A DNA stretch of 47,740 bases, taken from contig CANLII010000018.1 of assembly GCA_947491315.1 (NCBI GenBank), positions 1 through 47,740 on the forward strand, read 5' to 3'. The DNA comes from Ignavibacteria bacterium (GTDB lineage: Bacteria > Bacteroidota > Ignavibacteria > Kapaibacteriales > UBA961). Position 1 is the first letter of the stretch, and each line of letters begins with the position of its first letter. The notes below the pieces were generated by a model that was not told where the DNA came from, made no database searches, and saw nothing but the letters and a program-made list of their open reading frames with translations. Both the position numbers and the translations under genes were made by a program. Positions 15,994 through 19,560 of the stretch are shown here, in pieces.

Positions 15994-17058
15994 ATGAAAG
16001 CTCTCATTCTCTCTCTTGGATTCATCATCGGCATCGGCTGGGGTTTATATCCCGGTTTGCTCAAGCCCAGACCACTTTGGATGCGTATCGGACTCATCTC
16101 CGTGATGACAATCATGGTGTTTTTGGCATTATTTCCACGCATCGCTGGCACACCCGAAGATGTCGCATTGATCTATCGCATGGGCATGCAAAAACCCATT
16201 CCGGTTGTATGCAAGATCGATGTGTCAAAAGCAGAAAAACAAGAATCCGGTGAATGGATGATTCCGATTCAAGGCAAAGAGAAAACCTTTTTCTTGAGAT
16301 TGACCGCTGATAAACTCAATCCCGCTGATTTTGGAAATGGAATTTCCCTCATTGCTGATTTGCAAAGAGGAAATACCGATGCTGAATTGCGCCTTTCGAA
16401 TATCATTCAAATCGATCCGCTTATCACGCTACCATATATTGTTGGACTGGAAGAAAGAGCGCGCATACTCTATTTTCATGTGCCGATGTCATGGATAGCA
16501 TTTTTAGCCTATATCGTCTCGATGATCATGTCGATTCGCTATCTCAGAAATCCATCTCCACGACTTGATATCATTGCATCTTCATCTGCCGCATTGGGTA
16601 CGCTATTCTGTATTCTTGCCACGGTATCAGGCGCGATTTGGGCAAAATTCAATTGGGGATCTTTTTGGAATTGGGATCCTCGTGAGACATCCATCTTTGT
16701 TCTGCTCTTGATTTATGGAGCATATTTCGTACTTCGTTCCGCGATCGAACAAGAAGAAACTAGAGCGAGATTATCTTCGGTATATTCCATCATCGGTGCT
16801 ATAGCCGCAGTATTTTTTATTTATATCGCTCCTCGCATTTATGGCGGACTCCATCCCGGATCTGCCGATGATTCCAATGCAGGACCCGTCATTAGTCAGC
16901 AGGCAGGAACACTCGATCTTTTGAAACAAATCATTTTAAGCATGGCATTCTGTGCATTCACCATGCTGTATTTCTGGTTACTCAATCTTGCTGCGCGCAT
17001 TCGCATTGCAGGAAGAGAATTACAATCTCGCATGCTTCATAAGGAATCACTTTCATGA
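15994..17058 (+). CDS. ccmC: CcmC-type heme handling protein with N-terminal extension
   Basis: This is a heme handling protein of the HMWP/CcmC family used in system I cytochrome c maturation, where it loads heme onto CcmE at the outer face of the inner membrane. The CcmC core spans about residues 145-340, with the tryptophan-rich WGSFWNWDPRETS motif (221-233) and two candidate heme-ligand histidines, H162 in FHVPMSW and H287 in GGLHPG. About 145 residues precede this core: two membrane segments (about 3-19 and 32-50) and a polar domain of about 85 residues rich in beta strands. A standard CcmC is about 230 residues, so this extension is unusual. Its stop overlaps the next start as ATGA. Confidence 0.86.
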   Translation: MKALILSLGFIIGIGWGLYPGLLKPRPLWMRIGLISVMTIMVFLALFPRIAGTPEDVALIYRMGMQKPIPVVCKIDVSKAEKQESGEWMIPIQGKEKTFFLRLTADKLNPADFGNGISLIADLQRGNTDAELRLSNIIQIDPLITLPYIVGLEERARILYFHVPMSWIAFLAYIVSMIMSIRYLRNPSPRLDIIASSSAALGTLFCILATVSGAIWAKFNWGSFWNWDPRETSIFVLLLIYGAYFVLRSAIEQEETRARLSSVYSIIGAIAAVFFIYIAPRIYGGLHPGSADDSNAGPVISQQAGTLDLLKQIILSMAFCAFTMLYFWLLNLAARIRIAGRELQSRMLHKESLS

Positions 17059-17195
17059 TGTCATTCTTCGAACAACATGCCATCTATGTCGTCCTCGTCA
17101 TCGCACTTGTAATTTGGCTTGGACTCGCATTCTATGTCAATAAGTTAAACGGCTCCGTCAAAGAACTTGAACAACAAATCAAGCTAAAGGATTAG
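17055..17195 (+). CDS. CcmD-like small membrane protein
   Basis: This 46-residue open frame begins at ATG 17055, overlapping the ccmC stop as ATGA, and ends at TAG 17193-17195, two bp before ccmE. It has a short polar start, one hydrophobic helix (about residues 9-27, YVVLVIALVIW...) and a charged amphipathic tail. This layout is typical of CcmD, which holds CcmC and CcmE together. CcmD is too variable for certain recognition, so the call rests on size, topology and position. Confidence 0.8.
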   Translation: MMSFFEQHAIYVVLVIALVIWLGLAFYVNKLNGSVKELEQQIKLKD

Positions 17196-17197
17196 AA

Positions 17198-17590
17198 ATG
17201 AAAACTCGATATTGGATTGGCATCATAATGAGCCTTGCATTTCTTGGAATTGGCATCACAGTACTAGATTCGAGTAAAATTGAATATGGTACGATTGAAG
17301 CCGCTCGTGCTACCGGTAAGAAAATGCAGGTAAAAGGTATATGGGTGCGTGAGCAGGGAGCCAATTATGATGCAGAGAGAAATCTCTTCACATTCTCTAT
17401 GAAAGATGAAATAGGCGAAGTGATTCAAGTGGAATATCAAGGCGCAAGACCCAATAATTTCGATATTGCTGAGAGCATTGTAGTGAAGGGTCTTTTTGAA
17501 GACAAACAATTCATAGCGAATGAAATTCTCACGAAATGTCCTTCCAAATATGAAGGCAATGCCGATCAACTTCGCAAATCGGGTATTTAA
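17198..17590 (+). CDS. ccmE: Cytochrome c maturation protein CcmE, CxxxY type
   Basis: This is a CcmE heme chaperone of 130 residues: an N-terminal membrane anchor (about 5-23) and a periplasmic OB-fold. CcmE normally binds heme covalently through a histidine in an HxxxY motif. Here the corresponding place reads CPSKY, with Cys114 in place of His and the conserved Tyr118 kept. CxxxY-type CcmE is known from some archaea and from Desulfovibrio relatives whose Ccm systems differ from the standard one. The gene lies directly after ccmC and the ccmD-like gene. A second CcmE-like gene follows 9 bp later. Confidence 0.87.
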   Translation: MKTRYWIGIIMSLAFLGIGITVLDSSKIEYGTIEAARATGKKMQVKGIWVREQGANYDAERNLFTFSMKDEIGEVIQVEYQGARPNNFDIAESIVVKGLFEDKQFIANEILTKCPSKYEGNADQLRKSGI

Positions 17591-17599
17591 TCAACAGGA

Positions 17600-17980
17600 A
17601 TGTTCATGCTGAAACGCATCATCATCATCGCTCTCATTGTATTGCTTCCCTTTATTTTCTGGTATGCCACGCAGTTTGGTGCATTGCAATCCGTGCCATT
17701 TACCACTGCCATGAAAATGAGTGAACAAGCATCCGATGTGGAGCAAGCACAGAAAGTGAAGATCGATGGTAAGTTTACAGTGAAAGATGATGGACATGAT
17801 CATGAGGGACATGAAGGACATTTCCATGCAAAAGATCTTCAGGGGACAATCTTCAAAGTGGAATATACCGGGAAAGACCCACTTCCCGAGATGAAAGAGG
17901 GGAGCGAAATCTCAGTGTTTGGTCATGTGCATGGAGGCGATGAGCCTTATGTTCATGCCTCGCAGGTGATTGCGCGTTAA
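17600..17980 (+). CDS. CcmE-like OB-fold protein with histidine cluster
   Basis: This 126-residue protein has an N-terminal membrane segment (about 6-22) and a periplasmic domain whose last half (LQGTIFKVEYTGKDP ... GSEISVFGHV) reads like the OB-fold of CcmE. It stops right after the final strand (SQVIAR) and so lacks the C-terminal H/CxxxY heme-binding segment. Instead residues 64-76 carry five histidines (GHDHEGHEGHFH), a plausible metal- or heme-binding loop between strands. It is probably a tandem paralogue of the adjacent ccmE, with a changed role such as heme or metal relay. ATG 17600 and 17606 are both possible starts. The stop shares the TTAA with the stop of the convergent flavoprotein gene. 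Confidence 0.75.
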   Translation: MFMLKRIIIIALIVLLPFIFWYATQFGALQSVPFTTAMKMSEQASDVEQAQKVKIDGKFTVKDDGHDHEGHEGHFHAKDLQGTIFKVEYTGKDPLPEMKEGSEISVFGHVHGGDEPYVHASQVIAR

Positions 17981-19560
17981 GATTTCTTGCGTTTTTCGCT
18001 CAGCGTGAATCCAATAAAATTCAAAGCCCATCTGAGCAAACCCCAAAACCCATGCGTGCGTATCAACATCTTATAGGACATCGGATGTCTTTTCGGCACG
18101 GTGCTCATCATGATATTATAGGATTCCCACTTCATCGTATCTCGAAACACTTCTTGAGCAATATGATTCGGTAAATGAGCAAGCACATCCATGAAAAGAT
18201 TCATGGTTTCATTGACTGTATTTGCTGGTTGACCCTTCTTGCCCTGCAGGAATGCCGCAAAGTTCGACATGATTGCAACGCGCGATTCAAATGCATTAAT
18301 AGTTTTGAGCGAATTCTTAGTGAGCTGTTTTGACTCAATCGCTTGATGCAATGCTTTTGTCATGCGCGGAAGATTGCGTACAAATGATCCGAATCCGCAA
18401 TAGGAAAGTGGCGAACTGAGTGCTGCGGCATCGCCAATGCAAAGGATATTGTCATCAGCTGAAATGCGCGCATTGCCAAGAGCTTTATGAGAATAGGATG
18501 GAATGATTCCAAAGAGTGGTCTTCCGATGTCAAAATGCTCGCCCGGTTCTTTATATGTTGGAAGTTTTTCAAAAAACAATTCATATAAATTCAGGAGTGA
18601 TTTATCGGATGGGGAATCAATCGCATCATAGAAAAAGAGATACGTAACAAAGCGATCATTCGAGCTGGGAAAACCTTCCCAAATAAGTTGCCTGCCATCC
18701 GGGAGCATGTCTTCATTCGTGACAAGAATTTCGCCAACACTGAAATCCACATCGCGCTCGCCTATACCTGTTTTGAAACCCGATGAAATCGAGCCGACAG
18801 TAGGACAGCAATGCGTGAATGGCGCTTCAGGATTCAGGGATTTGGCTATCGGAGAAAATGCGCCCATTCCATCAATAAAGAGAGGGGTGATCAGTGTGCG
18901 TTCAATACCTTGCTCTTTAATTCTCACATGAGCCATTGTTCCATCAACTTCGATTGAAGTAAATTCCGCATTATCTAAAATCACACCGCCATGCGATACT
19001 ACAATTTCTCTTGCGGCAGATAATAATGCATTTGCATCCAGCGCATTATCGAGCACATGGTCCATCCACAAATGCGGGGTCTTGATGGCGGAATTCGCAT
19101 CATAAAATTTCACGAAACCACTGCGATAAGTGCAAGTAATGAATGATTGCAATTGCTCCTCAGTGAAGAGTTCGCAATCACGCAAAACAAGTAATTCCTG
19201 ATAGCTGATATTCCAATCGCGATGCGTGAGACCAACGCCATATTTATCGAATAAACAAACCGAATAACCATATACCTTCGACATCAAAGCCGCATGAATG
19301 ATGGCAAGACCACCACCTCCATAGACAATGTCAAAATCTTTCTCACCATTCAAATTCTTTGCATATGAAATCACTGGTTTCGGAATGTCTTTCACATTTC
19401 TCATGAAGGAAGATTCAATCGTGAGAAGCCTTTGAAACCAATATGTTCCATCCTGCATTTGTTTGAAATGCTTGACAGTCAGAGGATACGATATTTCATA
19501 TTCCGAAAAGATATGTACATCGGGGATCAACTGAGCTTTTGGTATGGCGCAAAGTGACAT
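17977..19560 (-). CDS. CruA/CruP-family lycopene cyclase-like flavoprotein
   Basis: This is a 527-residue FAD-dependent protein that I match to the CruA/CruP lycopene cyclase family of green sulfur bacteria and cyanobacteria. Visible family features are an FAD Rossmann segment near residue 78 with a glycine-rich GGGG (slightly degenerate), the HRDWNIS motif followed by ELLVL, a LFIDGMGAFSPIA segment, and a C-terminal FAD motif with GDAAALSSPLSYCGFG. Members cyclise lycopene or related carotenoids, although CruP paralogues have a protective, poorly defined role. No other carotenoid gene is in the window; ispG at 22573-23691 supplies isoprenoid precursors. A general geranylgeranyl-reductase-like flavoprotein is the alternative. 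It is convergent with the Ccm cluster and downstream of the ald terminator. Confidence 0.72.
   Translation of the reverse strand: MSLCAIPKAQLIPDVHIFSEYEISYPLTVKHFKQMQDGTYWFQRLLTIESSFMRNVKDIPKPVISYAKNLNGEKDFDIVYGGGGLAIIHAALMSKVYGYSVCLFDKYGVGLTHRDWNISYQELLVLRDCELFTEEQLQSFITCTYRSGFVKFYDANSAIKTPHLWMDHVLDNALDANALLSAAREIVVSHGGVILDNAEFTSIEVDGTMAHVRIKEQGIERTLITPLFIDGMGAFSPIAKSLNPEAPFTHCCPTVGSISSGFKTGIGERDVDFSVGEILVTNEDMLPDGRQLIWEGFPSSNDRFVTYLFFYDAIDSPSDKSLLNLYELFFEKLPTYKEPGEHFDIGRPLFGIIPSYSHKALGNARISADDNILCIGDAAALSSPLSYCGFGSFVRNLPRMTKALHQAIESKQLTKNSLKTINAFESRVAIMSNFAAFLQGKKGQPANTVNETMNLFMDVLAHLPNHIAQEVFRDTMKWESYNIMMSTVPKRHPMSYKMLIRTHGFWGLLRWALNFIGFTLSEKRKKS

Follow-up and report, generated by a model that had tools for sequence, protein, structure and literature searches.

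The window analyzed here, a stretch of 47,740 nucleotides from an Ignavibacteria bacterium (order Kapaibacteriales; assembly GCA_947491315.1, contig CANLII010000018.1), carries a group of ccm genes on its forward strand. It includes the gene for a second CcmE-like protein, hereafter called E2, which lies directly downstream of ccmE. The genes and the features that matter for their interpretation are the following:

15994-17058, + strand: ccmC, 354 residues, heme-handling WWD protein (PF01578, 95.8 bits, residues 154-285)
17058-17195, + strand: ccmD-like short membrane protein, 45 residues, between ccmC and ccmE (profile scores under cut-off)
17198-17590, + strand: ccmE, 130 residues, CxxxY-type heme chaperone (PF03100, 57.6 bits, cut-off 24.6)
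17537-17551, + strand: CPSKY heme-attachment motif of ccmE, C114-Y118, the CxxxY form as read from the sequence
17600-17980, + strand: E2, second CcmE-like protein, 126 residues, with a predicted membrane helix and OB barrel and no heme-attachment tail
17792-17827, + strand: GHDHEGHEGHFH, histidine-rich segment of E2, residues 65-76, most of it within the beta1-beta2 loop, which the model predicts with low confidence
17921-17959, + strand: GHVHGGDEPYVHA, predicted beta4-turn-beta5 hairpin of E2 with H109, H111 and H119, conserved in the family alignment

The genes upstream of E2 are recognizable with various degrees of ease. The best NCBIfam match of ccmC is TIGR01191 (ccmC), with 108 bits under a cut-off of 186. 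The protein has about 150 extra N-terminal residues ahead of its Cytochrom_C_asm domain, as do its relatives, and within this extension residues ~60-145 look like a small beta domain with no Pfam match. The ccmD-like protein scores 23.8 bits against TIGR04391 (CcmD_alt; cut-off 24) and 17 bits, also below cut-off, against PF20077. As for CcmE, its heme-attachment cysteine proved to be invariant in the 76 CcmE proteins examined. The ccm genes are dispersed in this genome, in which CcmB, CcmC and CcmF are all present: a CcmF-like frame of 760 residues was found on another contig (G000:C6) and CcmB on a third (G000:C19), and the Ccm machine is thus fuller than the window shows. Downstream, a FAD-dependent oxidoreductase-like gene (17977-19560, - strand; weak PF12831 match, below cut-off) is convergent with E2, the two ends overlapping by 4 bases.

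The open reading frame of E2 begins 9 nucleotides past the ccmE stop codon, and its true start may be at 17606, since relatives start at the position equivalent to M3. In Pfam profile searches, E2 gave no match to PF03100 at E-values up to 1 and no match over cut-off to any other model, and the search of NCBIfam returned no match. As neither collection holds a model for the E2 family, annotation likely overlooks it. The AlphaFold2 model of E2, computed with 28 relatives as input (mean pLDDT 89.8, pTM 0.76), consists of a hydrophobic N-terminal helix (residues 2-27), expected to cross the membrane, followed by a second, short helix (residues 34-43) and the five strands of an OB barrel. Both Foldseek and VIA-align returned OB folds for this model, in agreement with the fold anticipated by the original prediction. 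E. coli CcmE (1sr3) is in the Foldseek list without being at its top, and because many unrelated OB folds are placed above CcmE, the fold alone is no proof of CcmE ancestry. As a positive control, the CcmE encoded in the window, which is also predicted to adopt an OB fold, was modeled and put through Foldseek; its model shows the same order of elements as E2 plus the tail, and CcmE structures rank first among its matches, the best being the CcmE of 8ce8.

The ancestry of E2 is supported by profile-profile comparison, hhalign aligning the E2 and CcmE families over 111 columns with a probability of 97.2% and an E-value of 4.6e-11. This homology is visible with profiles only: pairwise BLASTP between the E2 and CcmE of the window returned nothing, and searching PDB sequences with the profile of the E2 family gave no real match. 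Besides the profile-level homology, E2 shares with CcmE (PF03100) the N-terminal membrane helix, the strand order of the OB barrel and the operon. The two proteins differ in that CcmE has a His/Cys-xxx-Tyr tail, which E2 lacks, while E2 has a GHxH...FHA set, which CcmE lacks. In the hhalign alignment the last residue of E2, R126, pairs with K113 of CcmE, one position before the heme cysteine, Cys114. Consistently, an H/C-xxx-Y motif after A120 is absent from all 43 E2 sequences, and the median distance to the C-terminus is 7 residues after A120 in E2 versus 23 after A107 in CcmE. The earlier claim of a CcmE paralogue that ends before the heme-binding segment is therefore confirmed. E2 arose from CcmE, probably by duplication, and no longer has the C-terminal segment to which heme is covalently attached. 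E2 was tested for the PF03100 profile match and for the heme-attaching tail and has neither, so that it is not to be filed as CcmE; E2 defines a new family of conserved CcmE paralogues inside a known kind of machine.

The original prediction had also drawn attention to a histidine cluster between strands. This cluster, GHDHEGHEGHFH, is indeed present at residues 65-76, but the weight given to it is not supported, as at least three histidines occur in this loop in only 3 of the 43 family members. It is a genus-level feature and was rejected as an active feature of the protein. The histidines which are conserved, H109, H111 and H119, had been missed. They belong to a family signature at the beta4-beta5 hairpin, represented here by GHVHGGDEPYVHA and composed of GHxH, a short turn and F/V-H-A (GHxH...FHA), which was found in 43/43 E2 proteins. 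H109 and H119 are present in all 43 and H111 in 42, the exception being a cysteine in one genome (G217), so that 42/43 have all three. In a family whose median pairwise identity is 34%, these are the sole columns with at least 90% histidine, compared with a histidine content of 1.3% elsewhere. At the matching columns CcmE has Arg or Lys (65/76), Glu (53/76) and, for the third, mixed polar residues (His in 18/76), from which it follows that the three histidines are as a set specific to E2 and that the face which bears them is polar and presumably outer. In the E2 of G008 (L094, 3984-4394), GHPH...FH is kept and the Ala that follows is replaced by Cys.

The E2 proteins of two genomes from another order (G463 and G464) retain GHAH...FH, which, like the replacement of H111 by Cys in G217, fits the expectation for a ligand site. 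In the AlphaFold2 model, the histidines are carried by the strands formed by residues 103-111 and 117-125, and the geometry of such a hairpin would bring the three side chains close together on one face. The GHxH...FHA hairpin, with its three conserved histidines, is the likely candidate for the ligand site of E2.

Among the 99 genomes of the order, E2 was found in 43, CcmE in 93 and CcmF in 95, and every genome with E2 also has both CcmE and CcmF. The predicted co-occurrence with a CxxxY-type CcmE thus holds for 43/43 genomes, CxxxY being the form in every CcmE examined. A preference of E2 for CxxxY rather than HxxxY partners is not supported, as the CxxxY form is shared by every CcmE examined from the order, whether E2 is present or not. 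Outside the order, surveys of the class and phylum added only G217, G463 and G464, all from another order; E2 adjoins CcmE in G463 and G464, and CcmF as well in G464. The other matches in the class and phylum (E-values of about 1e-4 to 1e-9) were, among those examined, CcmE itself. Beyond Bacteroidota, the survey consisted of one peptide-pattern scan of genome contigs, which finds close relatives only.

Gene order is mostly constant as well. In the fetched loci, which represent a few genomes twice, those with E2 read C-E-E2-F in 30 cases, C-E-E2 in 9 and E-E2-F in 5, and 23 of those without E2 read C-E-F. Whether ccmE and E2 are always adjacent had been raised as a question: they are nearly always side by side, with the exception of G009 and G011, in which other genes lie between them, and of G008, in which E2 is located away from both ccmE and ccmF. 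E2 is family-wide in several families of the order and absent from others; mapped on the CcmE tree, many forks of which are unresolved, this amounts to no fewer than six changes. As about half of the genomes of the order run the same Ccm system without E2, the protein is not essential to the pathway.

Several additional genes were noticed at these loci. In one genus, an orphan protein with a length of at most ~185 residues is encoded between ccmE and E2, singly or in two or three tandem copies (L096, 7257-7589; L097, 9109-10894), the one copy scanned having no Pfam match, and a methionine sulfoxide reductase (SelR) gene follows E2. In several genomes of the order, genes for a serine kinase-like ATPase, a STAS protein and a SpoIIE phosphatase, a set of the partner-switch type, are found just upstream of ccmC (L104, 8979-11925, and similar loci).

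The System I* of archaea and Desulfovibrio is reported in work by Allen (2006) and Goddard (2010) and reviewed in PMC3601427. CcmH (PF03918) was found over cut-off in none of the 99 genomes of the order, while E. coli and other controls were positive. With a CxxxY CcmE and no CcmH, the Ccm system of the order fits System I* as judged by gene content and sequence motifs. In the accounts of System I* and archaeal Ccm contained in PMC3601427 and PMC9084895, which describe this system for archaea and Desulfovibrio, a second CcmE-like protein is not mentioned; the CxxxY CcmE and the lack of CcmH are common to that system and to the order studied here. An open literature search likewise returned no additional CcmE paralogue of this kind.

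Comparison of CcmF sequences provided a further lead. At position 178 (G007 numbering; G007 CcmF at L093, 1152-3545), within LNPLLHN....IHPP and seven residues ahead of the conserved HPP histidine, an additional histidine is present in 39 of the 42 E2-bearing genomes versus 4 of 53 CcmF copies without E2, counts which omit two draft genomes of the same genus and two outlier rows. In the absence of E2, this position is mostly Gln or Glu. On the tree, this pattern corresponds to 3 independent contrasts on well-supported branches, or 6 on all branches, with a sign-test p of 0.5-1, and exceptions occur in both directions: G065, G008 and G217 have E2 and lack the CcmF histidine, and family f5 and G055 have the histidine and lack E2. 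Because the independent events are few and the exceptions run both ways, His178 is not counted as evidence and is retained as a lead only. Co-evolution of E2 and CcmF, which the phylogenetic sign test does not support, was set aside.

Based on these data, the reading that we favor, with a probability of roughly 0.4, is that E2 is a dedicated accessory subunit of the CcmH-less Ccm machine, which would coordinate iron through its three-histidine face and assist holo-CcmE in delivering heme to CcmF. The N-terminal helix would tether E2 to the inner membrane, and the OB barrel would lie on the periplasmic side. H109, H111 and H119 would be exposed together on an outward-facing side of the beta4-beta5 hairpin, at that end of the barrel from which, in CcmE, the heme-bearing tail would extend. 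This face may coordinate iron non-covalently, most likely that of the heme carried by the partner CcmE, a bare metal ion being the less likely ligand. E2 would in this way help heme to pass from holo-CcmE to CcmF. An action at this particular step is suggested by the position of the gene between those of the chaperone and the lyase, by descent from the chaperone itself, by a fixed histidine set having been gained while the covalent site was lost, and by the dependence on CcmE and CcmF.

A narrower form of this proposal is somewhat more tentative. In it, E2 would be a functional component new to cytochrome c maturation, namely a non-covalent carrier or clamp for heme iron. In CcmH-less machines, it would take or hold the heme of a holo-CcmE of the CxxxY type and offer it to CcmF by means of its three-histidine face. 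The broader division of labor which had been suggested at the outset, in which one CcmE would attach heme and the other would hold or pass heme or metal, is a reasonable proposal.

For three histidines arranged facially on neighboring strands, the resemblance to zinc and copper sites is no weaker than that to a heme site. In an alternative that we consider somewhat less likely than the favored reading, the ligand of this site would be a metal ion (Zn, Cu or Fe) and E2 would have no contact with heme, the ion serving to stabilize E2, to sense the metal or redox state, or to protect apocytochrome thiols and heme. Such a site is reminiscent of alpha-carbonic anhydrase, which also combines an HxH with one histidine from a neighboring strand; in E2, the HxH of beta4 and the histidine of beta5 would be brought by the short turn onto one face of the hairpin, and the His-to-Cys exchange in G217 would suit a metal ligand. 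OB-fold metal chaperones do exist: CusF and SilF, small OB barrels of the periplasm, bind copper and silver, and CusF (1zeq) and SilF are among the weak OB-fold matches in the Foldseek searches. Their ligand set, composed of one His, two Met and one Trp, differs from the three histidines of E2, and the likeness is one of fold. The surroundings of E2 argue against a bare metal site, as the operon is devoted to heme, E2 is descended from a heme chaperone, and no gene for a metal transporter or oxidase was identified beside E2 among its partly annotated neighbors.

Paralogous subunits often dimerize, and the location of the E2 gene between ccmE and ccmF, together with the lack of detectable CcmH across the order, is compatible with a purely structural adaptor. 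E2 would then form a heterodimer with CcmE or dock onto CcmF, standing in for CcmH, and its histidines would pack or make contacts without any cofactor. This explanation appears improbable: three conserved surface histidines, in a family with 1.3% histidine elsewhere, would be unusual for a contact surface, and genomes that lack CcmH as well as E2 are common, so that E2 is no needed substitute. The idea that E2 simply replaces CcmH is likewise weak, CcmH being missing whether E2 is present or not. Finally, a function of E2 in a different periplasmic process, merely co-expressed with the ccm genes, would agree with its separation from ccmE in G008, G009 and G011 and is very unlikely in view of its strict co-occurrence with CcmE and CcmF and its conserved position between their genes in two orders.

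With E2 regarded, as proposed above, as an accessory subunit acting between holo-CcmE and CcmF, this family offers a protein candidate and specific residues for mutagenesis in studies of the CcmE-to-CcmF heme step, above all in systems which combine a Cys-type CcmE with the lack of CcmH. It further points to a division of the Ccm chaperone family into a covalent member and a second, probably non-covalent, one.
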